The position numbers and the translations under genes are program-made. Below the pieces are notes generated by a model. The model had not been told where the DNA came from, searched no databases, and saw only the letters and a list, made by a program, of their open reading frames with translations. A stretch of 64,000 nucleotides of DNA from Gemmatimonadota bacterium (GTDB lineage: Bacteria; Gemmatimonadota; Gemmatimonadetes; Longimicrobiales; Gaopeijiaceae), in the NCBI GenBank assembly GCA_022560615.1, contig JADFSR010000010.1, positions 1 through 64,000 on the forward strand. The letters run 5' to 3'. Shown here one piece after another: positions 31,714-63,064 of the stretch (position 1 is its first letter; the number at the start of each line of letters is the position of its first letter).

Positions 31714-31797
31714 GCTCGAGGAGGGACTCGAACCCTCACGGGGTTAACCCCCACAGGGTCCTGAACCCTGCGCGTCTACCAATTCCGCCACCCGAGC
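31714..31797 (-). tRNA. tRNA-Leu(CAG)
   Basis: Acceptor GCTCGGG/CTCGAGC (one G-U pair), anticodon loop TTCAGGA in stem CAGGG/CCCTG, variable arm GGGGGTTAACCCC, T-arm GAGGG-TTCGAGT-CCCTC. Reads CUG. No CCA encoded. Confidence 0.95.
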
Positions 31798-57988: not shown

Positions 57989-59245
57989 ATGCGTTTCGTC
58001 CACCTGGCCGACGTCCACCTCGACACCTCCTTCGCAGGCCGTTCAGCGACCGTACGACGTCGACTCCGAGAGGCGTCCCGGGATGCCTTCCGCCGCACCG
58101 CCGACCTCGCGATACGAGAGGACGCCAACGCTCTCCTGATCGCCGGCGACCTCTTCGACGGCGACCGACTCTCCTTCCAGACCGAGCGGTTTCTCCTGGA
58201 GCAGATGCGCCGCCTCGAGCAACACGGTGTCACCGTGGTATACGCGACGGGCAACCACGACCCCGGGTCGCCGCTCTCCGGCCCGCGACCGCTGGATTGG
58301 CCGGCGAACGTGCACGTCGCCTGGGACGCCACTCCCAAACGGATCCTCATACACGACCGGGAAGGTGAGCCCGCGGGCCACGTATCGGCCGCGGGCCACG
58401 CAGGCGACCGGGAGAAACGGGACCTCTCGCGACTTCTTCCGGCTCCGACGGGCGACCTGCCCGAAGTGGCGTTGCTGCACACTCAGGTGCACTCGTCCCT
58501 CGGAGCTGAAGCTCATCACGCGTACGCACCCTCGGAGCTCACGTATCTCATCCGTTCCGGCTTCGACTACTGGGCGCTGGGCCATGTGCATGTCCGCCAG
58601 GAGCTCTCCCTGGACCCTCCGGTCGTGTACGCGGGAAGCCTTCTGGGGCGTACCCATACCGATACCGGGGCGCGCGGAGCGCTCTTGGTCGACCTCAGCG
58701 ACCGCGAGGCGCCGGAGATCTCTTTCCGGGCCCTGACGCCGATCCGGTGGGAGACGATCACCGTCGACCACTTGGAAGGAGCCGACTCCCTCGACCGGCT
58801 CGAGCAACGCATCGGAGCCGTGTGGCGGTCGTTCCGCGACGGGCAGGCAGCCGCCTCGGACGTCGAGTGGATGGTTCGTGTCCAGCTCGCCGGACCGTGC
58901 CCTCTCTGGAAGGAGCTCCAGGACGACGAGAACCGGGACGAGCTCGCTCGGGAGCTGGCGGAGGCGCTGGGTGCTCTCGACGTCGTCGTCATGGCGGACC
59001 GGGTTCACCCGGTCATTCCGATCCATGAGCATCGCATCCGCACCGACGTGCTCGGCGAGACCCTGCGGCTCAGCGAATCGATCCGCCGGGGCGAGACGCG
59101 GTTGACAGCGCTCGACGCCGGCACCCTCGCGGGTGTCACCTCCGAAGACGCGGCGGTCGTCGACGCATACGTTCGCGAATTGCTGCGAGAGGCAGATGGG
59201 GAGCTCGCGGCGCGTCTGCTCGCATCCGAGGGTGACGCACCGTGA
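57989..59245 (+). CDS. SbcD/YhaO-like DNA repair exonuclease subunit
   Basis: A 418-aa calcineurin-like metallophosphoesterase. Motifs: HLADVHLDTSF, GDLFDGDRL, ATGNHDPGS, LLHTQVHSSLG and WALGHVHVRQ, all expected metal ligands of Mre11/SbcD nucleases. It overlaps the next gene by GTGA, forming an SbcCD- or YhaO/YhaN-like pair. ATG 57989 starts right at the conserved MRFVHLADVH. Confidence 0.92.
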   Translation: MRFVHLADVHLDTSFAGRSATVRRRLREASRDAFRRTADLAIREDANALLIAGDLFDGDRLSFQTERFLLEQMRRLEQHGVTVVYATGNHDPGSPLSGPRPLDWPANVHVAWDATPKRILIHDREGEPAGHVSAAGHAGDREKRDLSRLLPAPTGDLPEVALLHTQVHSSLGAEAHHAYAPSELTYLIRSGFDYWALGHVHVRQELSLDPPVVYAGSLLGRTHTDTGARGALLVDLSDREAPEISFRALTPIRWETITVDHLEGADSLDRLEQRIGAVWRSFRDGQAAASDVEWMVRVQLAGPCPLWKELQDDENRDELARELAEALGALDVVVMADRVHPVIPIHEHRIRTDVLGETLRLSESIRRGETRLTALDAGTLAGVTSEDAAVVDAYVRELLREADGELAARLLASEGDAP

Positions 59246-61929
59246 GGATCGAGCGCATCCATGTCCGCGCGTTCGGGCGGCTCAGCAACTTCGACTCGGG
59301 CGCTGACGCTCTGCCCGGACTCGTCGTGGTTCTCGGCCCCAATGAAGCGGGCAAGTCGACGCTCTTCCACTTCCTTACCACAATGCTATATGGCTTTCAC
59401 CCTGCCTCCAGGGAGGGAAATCCCTACCTGCCATGGGATGGCGAGGACGCCTGTGGCAGCGCACGACTGCGCCTGGACGGGGAGGGGTGTGTCGAGGTCG
59501 AGCGTCATCTGCGTTCACAGCCCGGGGGGAGGCTCACGATCGACGGGCGGGTCGATGAGCTACGCAATCGTGCCCTCCCGTGGGTCGATCATGTTCCGCG
59601 CTCCGTCTTCCGCCAGGTCTTCGCCGTCACGCTCGCGGATCTCGCGGGTCTGGACTCCGAGACGTGGGCACGCATTCAGGATCGCATCCTCGGCTCGATG
59701 GGAACGACCGACCTCTTGCCGGCCCGTAGCGTCGCGGACGTGCTCGAACAGGAGGCCGGCGCGTTGTGGCGACCTCACCGACGCGGGAATCAGCGGGTTA
59801 GAAGAGTGCAGGACCACATCCGCACCCTGCGTTCACAGCGACGACAGGCGCTTGAGCGCGATAGGGAGATCAGGGCGCTCGCCGAGGAGCTCGAGCGGAC
59901 CCGGACCGAGTTGTACGACGCTCGCGAGGCGAGAGAGCGAGAGCGCGTCGCGGTGGAGCGCGTACAGACCCTGACCCCAATCCGAGCCCAGCTCCTCCGC
60001 ATCGCGACGCTTCGAGAGGAGGGCGGGCCACGTGAGGCACTACAGTCGCAGCCGTCCGATCCGAGTGCGCACCTCAGCGCTCTCGAGGCTCGGGTGCGCG
60101 AGCTGGCGGAGCGTACATCGGAGACCGACCGGGATCTGCAAGAGCCGGAGGCTGCGGTCGCGAGCTACGACGAGAGAGCCCGGGCGCTACTCGACCGCTC
60201 CGAGGAAGTCGAGTCTTTCCTGGCACTGGCGAGCGGGGCCCTCTCGGACCGAGCACGCCGTCAGGGGTTGAAGCAAGAGACGAGCGACCTCGCCCGTCGG
60301 ATTGACGAGCTGGGCGGAGAGCTGCTTGCCGTTCCTATCGCTGAAGCTCCGAAGGGAGCGATCTCGGCGCTGTCCGCCCGGGCGCTGCGCGCCCGAGTCC
60401 GAGATGCTCGCCGGGCCCGCGACGAGCGGCGCTTACTCGACGACGGCGATCCCGAAGCGGCGGAGGCCGGGAGAGCCATCCCCGTCGTTGCCATGCTGAT
60501 GACGCTTTTCGGAGTCACGCTCGTGGTGGCGGGCACGCTCTCGGGTCTCGGCATTTTGACGGCGCTCGGGGCCGCCGCCGGTGCGATCGGGCTCACGTTG
60601 TTGACCCAGTGGCAGAGAGCCCGAACGGCGGCCACGTCCGCAGGGGCCCAGCGTAGTCCAGCCGCTGGACTCGCTCGAGCGCGGCAGCTCGAGCGGGAGA
60701 CTCGCGACCTCGTTCTCGAGCTTCTGAAGGACATCCCCACCGAGCCCGCTCTTCTCGACGAGCCGTCGGAAGGCCTCGCCTCCGATTTCGAACGGCTTCA
60801 AGGGCTCATGAGAGATCACCGGGAGCGATCCGGGGAGAGAGATGATCTCATGGAGCGGATCGACCGCGTCGATGCGGAGGCGGCCGCTCTGACCGCGAGT
60901 CTCGGGCTGGAAGTGCCTCTCGAGGCCGAGGTCCTGACCCACCTGCTCGACCGCGAACTCCGGCGCGCGGAGCGACTCCGAGAGGGCGCAGCGGCAGCCG
61001 ACCGCGAACTTCGACGTCTCCACCGCGAACGGGATCGGCTCGTGACGGAGCTCGGGCAAACCGAGGCCGCGTTGGGGGAGTTCACCGAGTCCATGACCGC
61101 CCTCGGAGGAGGCGATCTCGAGCGAGGTGTCGATGCAACCACAGCACGGCTCGCCGCGCACATCCGGGCCGACGAACTCGAGGACGAGCTGGAGCGCACT
61201 CACCCTGACCTCGACGAACTGCGCGACCGCATCGGCGCATCCGAGGAGGCCGGCGAGTCGTGGACCATCGTCGAGGACGACCTCGCCAGCCGCCGCACGG
61301 GGATCGAGCAGCTGAGTGAGCGAATAGAGCTACTGGCCACCCGCGCCAAGGGGCTCGACCGGGACATCGCGCACCTGCATGGAGAGGAAACCGTGGACGC
61401 CGTGGACGGCGAGATCGCCAGCCTCCAGGACGAAGAGGCGCGGCTCGTCCGGGAACGGGACCGACGCTGGGTGCTGGCCCAACTCATCCGTGACGCCGAT
61501 CGGCGCTTCCGTGAGGAACACCAGCCGGACCTGATCCGGCGGGCGGGAGCGTATCTGAAGCACCTCACGGGCGGACGCTACGACCGCATCCTGGTCAGCG
61601 AAACAGGTGCCGGTGACATTTTTCAGGTGCTCGGGCCCAGCCTGCCAGCGCCAATACCGCTCATGCCGCCGATGTCTACCGGCACGCTCGAGCAGGCGTA
61701 CCTCTCGCTGCGACTCGCGATCGTGGACCATCTGGACCAGGGGGGAGAGCGCCTCCCGCTCTTCGTCGATGAGGTCTTCGTCAACTGGGATCGTGAGCGA
61801 CGCGGCCGGGGCATCGAGGTTCTGGGCAGCCTCTCGCGCAACCGCCAGCTCTTCGTCTTCACCTGCCACCCGGAACTGGCCGAACAGTTCAGCGGCTGTG
61901 GGGCCGCTGTGCTCGAGTTAGAAGGCTGA
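59242..61929 (+). CDS. YhaN/SbcC-like ATPase
   Basis: An 895-aa AAA ATPase. Walker A GPNEAGKST at about residues 31-39, a long Arg/Glu-rich coiled coil (residues 180-400 and 470-780), two central hydrophobic spans (VVAMLMTLFGVTLVVAGTL and LTALGAAAGAIGLTLL), and Walker B LPLFVDEVF near the C-terminus with an FTCHPE ending. The central membrane segments in place of a zinc hook match YhaN rather than SbcC. GTG start overlaps the nuclease stop. The last codons and stop lie in the left arm of a 32-bp inverted repeat. Confidence 0.9.
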   Translation: MRIERIHVRAFGRLSNFDSGADALPGLVVVLGPNEAGKSTLFHFLTTMLYGFHPASREGNPYLPWDGEDACGSARLRLDGEGCVEVERHLRSQPGGRLTIDGRVDELRNRALPWVDHVPRSVFRQVFAVTLADLAGLDSETWARIQDRILGSMGTTDLLPARSVADVLEQEAGALWRPHRRGNQRVRRVQDHIRTLRSQRRQALERDREIRALAEELERTRTELYDAREARERERVAVERVQTLTPIRAQLLRIATLREEGGPREALQSQPSDPSAHLSALEARVRELAERTSETDRDLQEPEAAVASYDERARALLDRSEEVESFLALASGALSDRARRQGLKQETSDLARRIDELGGELLAVPIAEAPKGAISALSARALRARVRDARRARDERRLLDDGDPEAAEAGRAIPVVAMLMTLFGVTLVVAGTLSGLGILTALGAAAGAIGLTLLTQWQRARTAATSAGAQRSPAAGLARARQLERETRDLVLELLKDIPTEPALLDEPSEGLASDFERLQGLMRDHRERSGERDDLMERIDRVDAEAAALTASLGLEVPLEAEVLTHLLDRELRRAERLREGAAAADRELRRLHRERDRLVTELGQTEAALGEFTESMTALGGGDLERGVDATTARLAAHIRADELEDELERTHPDLDELRDRIGASEEAGESWTIVEDDLASRRTGIEQLSERIELLATRAKGLDRDIAHLHGEETVDAVDGEIASLQDEEARLVRERDRRWVLAQLIRDADRRFREEHQPDLIRRAGAYLKHLTGGRYDRILVSETGAGDIFQVLGPSLPAPIPLMPPMSTGTLEQAYLSLRLAIVDHLDQGGERLPLFVDEVFVNWDRERRGRGIEVLGSLSRNRQLFVFTCHPELAEQFSGCGAAVLELEG

Positions 61930-62221
61930 TGAAGAAGTACAGCGGGCCGCGTTGCGGTGCCACGGCCTCATATCCTAGGCGGAGCTTCGAAGGCCTAGCC
62001 GTCGCTACGTCGAGGAGCTCCAACGACGGAGATGGGGCCGTGCCACCACAACCCACGAACTTGTGTGTCCTTTCATCCTGGTGTTGGGCACATGGCGGTT
62101 GCGCGGTTGATCCATCGTCTCTCCTCGTCGCCGTAGCTCGGCTACGACTCCTCGTCGTTCCTTGCCTGAACGCGCGCAAGCACCATGTGCGCGGCCCACT
62201 GTACTTCTTCATCAGCCTTCT
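61920..62221. repeat. 302-bp element with 32-bp inverted ends
   Basis: The left arm (61920-61951) and right arm (62190-62221) are inverted copies of 32 bp with one mismatch; each contains GATGAAGAAGTACAG. Inside are further hairpins (CTAGGC/GCCTAG, GTAGC/GCTAC) and inverted segments resembling each other, so the whole element could fold as one long hairpin. The block order of its right half, read on the minus strand, recurs at 15048-15161. No transposase or reading frame is seen inside. Confidence 0.75.
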
Positions 62222-62224
62222 CGC

Positions 62225-63064
62225 GTGATCGGAAGGCAGCTTCCCCTCCACGTAGAGACGCTGGGCCTGGAGCCCGCGCCTGACGTGGACACTGTGCTCA
62301 TGATCCACGGTTACGGAGCTTCCGCCTTTTCCTGGCGCTACTGGGCGCCTCGCCTCGCGGAGCGCGCAACCGTGGTACTCGTCGACCTCAAGGGATCGGG
62401 GGCGGCGCCCAAACCGGACGACGGGCGGTACCGGCCGGAGGACCAGGCCGAGTTGCTCCATCGACTCGTTCTTCAACGAGACCTCCGGCGGCTCACGGTC
62501 GTCGGTCATTCCCTCGGCGGTGGAATCGCGCTACTGCTGGCGCTGCGACTTCAAGACGACGAAGAGGCTAGACTCGCACGGCTCGTCCTCGTGGCCAGCG
62601 CCGCGTACGAGCAGCGACTGCCGCCCTTCATCGGTCTGGCGCGTTACCGCTGGATCGGGATCGCGCTCTTCCGACTTCTCGGCGCGCGGTTCGTGATCCG
62701 AAAGGTGCTACGCTCCATCGTGTACGATCCGCACGCGGTCGCCCGAAACCAGGTCGAAGGGTACGCGGCACCACTGAACGACACCGAAGCGCGGCGCGCG
62801 CTCATCGACTCGGCGCTCAACCTGGTGCCAGAGCGGATCGACGCCCTCAACGCTCGCTTTTCCGACCTGGTCGTGCCGGCGCTGATCCTCTGGGGACGAC
62901 ACGACCGTGTGGTCCCGTTGTGGGTCGGAGAGCGGTTGCTCGAGGCGCTGCCCAACGCGACCCTCCACGTCTTCGAAAAGTGCGGACACATGCCCGCCGA
63001 AGAGATCCCAGAGGAGTCGTTTGTGCGCCTCGCTACCTTCTTGGACGAGACCGCCGCTACCTGA
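62225..63064 (+). CDS. Alpha/beta hydrolase
   Basis: A 279-aa alpha/beta-hydrolase. Oxyanion region LMIHGYGASAFSW, nucleophile elbow GHSLGGG (Ser), acid in LWGRHDRVVP, and His in EKCGHMPAEE. GTG 62225 is used as start because it lies just outside the right arm of the inverted-repeat element; the frame upstream is within it. Converges with the glycosyltransferase, overlapping by 8 bp. Substrate unknown. Confidence 0.88.
   Translation: MIGRQLPLHVETLGLEPAPDVDTVLMIHGYGASAFSWRYWAPRLAERATVVLVDLKGSGAAPKPDDGRYRPEDQAELLHRLVLQRDLRRLTVVGHSLGGGIALLLALRLQDDEEARLARLVLVASAAYEQRLPPFIGLARYRWIGIALFRLLGARFVIRKVLRSIVYDPHAVARNQVEGYAAPLNDTEARRALIDSALNLVPERIDALNARFSDLVVPALILWGRHDRVVPLWVGERLLEALPNATLHVFEKCGHMPAEEIPEESFVRLATFLDETAAT

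Follow-up and report, generated by a model that had tools for sequence, protein, structure and literature searches.

What is the 302-bp inverted-repeat element at positions 61920-62221 of the window, the 64,000-nucleotide stretch of a Gemmatimonadota genome analysed here, and why does it lie exactly at a gene end? An earlier note on this DNA had offered three possibilities, a non-autonomous mobile element, a structured RNA or a large bidirectional terminator. Our analysis supports the first two together and argues against the third. We consider it likely that the element is a MITE carrying a structured-RNA payload of ~240 nt, which is moved by IS1182 transposases into CTAG sites, has exchangeable ends and acts in the host transcript. 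The features of the window copy are collected in Table 1.

Table 1. Features of the inverted-repeat element in the window, with the strand on which each is read
Feature	Window positions	Strand	Basis
Whole element, MITE-like	61920..62221	- (RNA, folded strand)	Arm pairing; >50 relatives in own genome
Left terminal inverted repeat, class 1 (AGAAGGCTGATGAAGAAGTACAG...), doubling as outer RNA helix P1	61920..61951		
Right terminal inverted repeat, class 1	62190..62221		
TTAG, presumed left copy of the CTAG target duplication, overlapping the yhaN end	61918..61921		Clean duplications at L020 and L026
CTCG, presumed degenerate right copy of CTAG	62220..62223		Other family members
P2/P3 RNA arm	62088..62190	-	22 of 29 pairs kept through changes on both sides, 26 relatives
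Apical P3, tandem sheared-type G·A/A·G pairs with single covarying Watson-Crick pairs between	62112..62163	-	Alignment columns 61-105
Variable linker or hairpin joining the two arms; only a UUCG loop in distant relatives	62053..62087	-	
P4 RNA arm, with near-invariant GUCGUUGG	61951..62052	-	18 of 27 pairs kept through changes on both sides, 31 relatives; model R1

The two 32-bp arms pair at 31 of 32 positions (97% complementary) across 238 nt, as the earlier note had described, and a 21-mer of the arm, searched with up to 3 mismatches, occurs in the window at these two sites only, where shuffled sequences are expected to give 0. Upstream lies the ORF of a YhaN/AAA_27-type ATPase (59242-61929), whose final codons and TGA stop are indeed supplied by the left arm. 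In a sister species of the same genus (genome G001), yhaN ends with GAG TTA GAA GCC TGA and the element is absent, and so the last yhaN codons in the window appear to be largely host sequence that coincides with the element end TTAGAAG; this refines the earlier view, as these codons would not be something the gene needed from the element. Downstream, an in-frame GTG of an alpha/beta-hydrolase ORF stands at 62225, 3 nt past the right arm, again as had been noted. This GTG, the likely hydrolase start, has no obvious counterpart start at the G001 junction (window 62222-62300), so that start and ribosome binding site are assigned only tentatively; the insertion would abolish any translational coupling to yhaN. 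A Pfam search of the internal ORFs gave no match, in agreement with the earlier statement that no transposase lies inside.

The element belongs to a multicopy family. A BLAST search of its own genome (4.5 Mb in 105 contigs), which the earlier note had proposed, returned at least 40 scored matches; the core motif was found there at 35 exact and 16 one-mismatch sites, versus 3 for a reversed control pattern, and these sites together with further copies that we read bring the copy number above 50. Copies range from ~210 to 440 nt in length, because hairpin modules come and go. With the own genome counted, 15 of the 39 genomes searched contain matches, and presence among relatives is patchy. Many relatives' contigs stop inside the element, so that the copy counts are lower bounds. 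When a 34-nt core pattern was run over 84,980 species genomes, it hit 66 contigs, all titled Gemmatimonadetes, Gemmatimonadota or Gemmatimonadales; the same pattern had no match in viral contigs, nor had the element in plasmid and phage collections. A covariance model of the P4 arm (R1) matched 28 of 298 genomes of the phylum, from four families of one class.

Comparison with the sister species gave evidence of insertion. For 16 copies of the own genome, we joined the two flanks and looked for them in G001: 13 orthologous junctions were contiguous and lacked a full element, one gave a one-sided match and two had no match. CTAG stands on both sides of L020 and L026, versus a single CTAG in G001; L008 likewise has CTAG on both sides, and its G001 site has a single TTAG, the TAG of which is the stop codon of the upstream gene. 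The G001 site of L005 reads CTAT. At L016 and L025, G001 retains only a terminal-repeat stub (L193 and L194), which suggests that elements may also be lost by internal deletion. For L001, L003, L007 and L010 the duplication was not cleanly readable, and older copies have degenerate junctions. The copy number, the element-free sites and the 4-bp CTAG target duplication establish that the element is multicopy and mobile. The window junction itself is empty in G001, where it reads ...CTCGAGTTAGAAGCCTGA...; this may be either the original site or a near-precise deletion. The earlier note had regarded occupation of this junction in distant relatives as an argument against mobility; the junction was inspected in the sister species and is unoccupied there. 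In the window, TTAG and CTCG form the best boundary of the element and are presumably mutated copies of the CTAG duplication. Many copies start within 15 nt of a stop codon. Because TAG is itself a stop codon, many insertions lie at gene ends with the upstream stop kept. One copy, L021 (G000:C28:51050-51330), is a class-2 element inserted in a CTAG at the edge of a class-3 terminal repeat, that is, into the end of another element.

With terminal inverted repeats, a short length and no transposase, the element has the make-up of a MITE, and its ends match those of IS1182-family elements. Near-identical ends were found in related genomes of the same order, in L067 (CTAGAAGGCTGTTGAAGAAGT, class 1, identical over 21 nt to the GTTG form that is commoner in the window's class), L069 (CTAGCAGGTCGCTGAAAAA, class 4) and L066 (CTAGAAGTCTGTTGAAAA, class 7). 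Similar ends are carried by L078 from a related genome (CTAGGAAGGTGACCGGAAAG, less similar, corresponding to class 2) and by L063, the one intact IS1182-family element of the own genome, which encodes 472 aa, carries CTAGGAGCCCGTGG, has the ends CCTAGGAGCCCGTGG and corresponds to class 3. The best family for the transposases of L063, L066, L067, L069 and L078 is NF033551, most of them, L063 included, scoring below its strict equivalog cut-off. The own, fragmented genome yielded no intact IS1182 element whose ends are of class 1 or class 2, and in another genome (G016) a small class-1 element (L037) and a class-1 IS1182-type element (L068) occur together. From the matching ends we infer that the terminal repeats would be bound in trans by IS1182-family transposases, whose insertion at CTAG would duplicate those 4 bp. 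The interior has no protein-family match and shows no derivation from an IS1182 transposase gene. Some IS1182-family members have been reported to prefer palindromic or inverted-repeat targets (PMC5678879), which the palindromic CTAG target fits. Another member of the family, IS1272, reportedly takes the place of a stem-loop in its target and leaves no target duplication (PMC5678879); this mode was rejected for our element, since CTAG is duplicated at L020 and L026.

The earlier note had also seen that the interior halves look inverted relative to each other. Indeed, predicted folding is far beyond that of shuffled sequences on both strands, with z = -9.3 for the plus and -12.7 for the minus strand. 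In both RNA arms, changes on both sides of a pair keep the pairing (Table 1), and the covariation scores, 0.522 versus 0.166 in shuffled alignments for P2/P3 and 0.371 versus 0.127 for P4, are about three times the shuffled values and well above every slid control. The minus-strand core is the better fold in 64 of 72 copies. One of the two tandem steps in P3 is G·A plus A·G in 48 of 49 sequences, and the other is G·A/A·G in 33 sequences and G-C/C-G in 12-13; on the opposite strand, these steps would turn into C·T/T·C mismatches. Three G·U pairs are kept on the minus strand, two of them strongly (49 of 49 and 42 of 49 sequences). Over all common pairs, G·U and A·C are about equally frequent (77 versus 91), and the argument for one strand thus rests on the tandem G·A pairs, the three conserved G·U pairs and the orientation bias described below. 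On these data we take the ~240-nt interior to be a structured RNA that is specific to one strand and has a conserved tandem G·A motif, and the structured-RNA proposal is right as far as a strand-specific predicted fold maintained in evolution is concerned. In Rfam, the window copy had no match at E values up to 10 and eight relatives had none up to 1, and no match reached a gathering score. A hammerhead-like CUGAUGA in the left repeat of the window copy was considered and dropped, as most class-1 copies read CUGUUGA.

Paired sequence of this kind could also be kept in an ordinary selfish MITE, as palindrome-like DNA whose arms are held complementary by template switching or arm conversion, while the RNA has no function. 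Quasi-palindrome correction can imitate compensatory change, the almost perfect outer repeats vary in concert, and the helix swaps and hairpin modules agree with events of a conversion type. Such correction, however, would erase mismatches and do so equally on both strands, whereas the tandem G·A pairs and specific G·U pairs have survived across long evolutionary distances and can be explained on just one strand. As copies moreover preferentially have the RNA strand sense to transcription, we regard this explanation as unlikely. The fold might instead be at work in single-stranded DNA, for instance on the lagging strand or in the course of transposition. The mobility of the element is itself DNA-based, and tandem G·A and G·T pairs form in single-stranded DNA too. 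IS1182 transposases, however, are of the DDE type and recognize double-stranded ends, which needs no such fold; the core is common to elements with different ends, and its orientation is biased relative to the transcription of its neighbours. We thus give a single-stranded DNA role little credence.

The orientation bias was scored with genes called by a codon-position GC heuristic rather than from annotation. Of 41 distinct sites flanked by co-directional genes, 33 have the RNA strand in sense and 8 in antisense (p=1.1e-4); strict gene calls gave 13:1, and an earlier subset 22:3. The window copy departs from this, with an RNA strand antisense to both yhaN and the hydrolase gene; a few other copies are likewise antisense to their genes. 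A terminator acting in both directions at gene ends, the remaining proposal of the earlier note, or an insulator there would agree with the adjoining stop codons and with strong folding of both strands, and yet it predicts no orientation preference between co-directional genes, in conflict with the 33:8 observed. Many copies part same-strand genes, where termination would silence the downstream gene. Scans for an intrinsic terminator (GC-rich stem plus U-run) and for a sigma-70 promoter found none, and the fold lacks a terminator-like U-run and appears strand-specific; a terminator is therefore quite improbable. If the structured-RNA MITE reading holds, an element between co-directional genes would usually be read as RNA in one sense, and the folded RNA would then work within the host's transcript, where its most likely role is that of a 3'-UTR or intercistronic structure governing the decay or processing of the mRNA, in the manner of ERIC and NEMIS. 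Any such activity in the host is a proposal.

The same interior was found with at least seven classes of terminal repeat, several of which match distinct IS1182 elements. Both arms of an element always belong to the same class, with 0 cross-class hybrids among ~65 typed elements. A tree built from the cores alone requires at least 25 class changes where 8 would do, and classes on this tree are still clustered compared with shuffles. In the same-genome pairs L054/L032, L017/L023 and L001/L005, cores that are 93-96% identical carry different ends, which match at just 15-18 of 22-23 positions. The window core, likewise, is 93% identical to class-2 and class-4 copies versus 89-91% to the same-class copies L002 and L003. 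It could be supposed that the ends are fixed and have drifted, the classes being point-mutation variants and not products of exchange, and classes 1 and 1b and some class-7 ends are in fact only a few bases apart. Drift does not account for such dissimilar ends on nearly identical cores, for arms that always change together, for classes that match separate IS1182 elements, or for the number of changes on the core tree, and we consider it very unlikely indeed. The payload would accordingly not be bound to one transposase: the occurrence of one core with varied but matched left and right ends suggests that recombination or conversion between co-resident elements has repeatedly given it new ends, or given the ends new cores. 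Conversion of the core between ends and exchange of ends between cores are expected to leave the same pattern, and either may have been the route.

Other genomes show further end classes, one of which lacks CTAG (AGAGGGTGTTTACATAC; L196 and L201 in G043). These two elements share the core and have the ends AGAGGGTGTTTACATACTACG, with class-1 copies in the same genome; their CTAG-less ends possibly point to a different transposase family.

Smaller modules are nested within the elements. A 27-nt hairpin, GGGCACCGCCGCCGAAGGCGGTGGTCC, occurs 48 times without mismatch and three times with one mismatch in the own genome, for example twice in L010 (G000:C9:96372-96398 and 96518-96544). Where checked, it lies inside elements, in two different loops and in both orientations, and the cores around identical copies differ by 10-30%. 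Other hairpins with the same feet (GGGCACC...GGTC) also occupy those loops. The hairpin thus looks like a nested mobile or homogenised module. A more speculative reading, possible in our view though doubtful, takes the structured RNA, selfish and phylum-specific, as the unit that really replicates: it would swap ends to ride host IS1182-type transposases, ease its stop-codon insertions by acting in cis in host mRNA, and collect hairpin modules; the RNA might then be a ribozyme or a protein-binding RNA.

Transposable elements carrying structured RNA are known, among them IStrons and those with OMEGA/HEARO-type RNAs. Our element resembles them in this respect and differs in having no associated nuclease ORF; Rfam returned no self-splicing intron or OMEGA/HEARO RNA for the window copy (E up to 10) or the eight relatives (E up to 1). 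The RUP element of pneumococcus is, like ours, non-autonomous, with ends that copy those of a resident insertion sequence, and is tied to the IS630 family. Unlike our longer element with its several end classes, RUP is 107 bp long and belongs to one IS family. The review PMC2229807 reports for it no structure or function signature beyond its ends. ERIC, NEMIS/Correia and similar bacterial MITEs are also small, multicopy, non-coding inverted repeats near genes with transcribed secondary structure (PMC2229807). The nearest documented behaviour is that of ERIC, which controls mRNA in an orientation-dependent way, and of NEMIS, which is processed by RNase III (PMC2229807), and our element, on its predicted structure and its orientation, shares a conserved RNA structure that is preferentially sense to the neighbouring genes. 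It differs from them in being longer, in its predicted three-way-junction RNA with tandem G·A motif and deep covariation, and in having one core with many end classes, and we found no relation to any described element. In open-access text on Gemmatimonadota MITEs, on IS1182 and MITEs and on structured RNA in MITEs, we found no description of this element family. We regard the family as new and as a real feature made of parts of known kinds, namely a MITE, a conserved structured RNA and exchangeable ends.

The usual view of bacterial MITEs is that they are insertion sequences with an internal deletion and depend on a single transposase. In this family the structured RNA is conserved but its transposon ends are replaced, and the payload is thus separate from its vehicle. 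Should the RNA act in mRNA, this little-studied phylum would have a regulatory or protective RNA that spreads itself, and a single genome offers more than 50 natural insertions, with element-free orthologous sites available for direct comparison. Elsewhere in the window, the repeat list also contains a tRNA-like overlapping inverted repeat (GAGGAGGGACTCGAACCC...) at 31717-31774.
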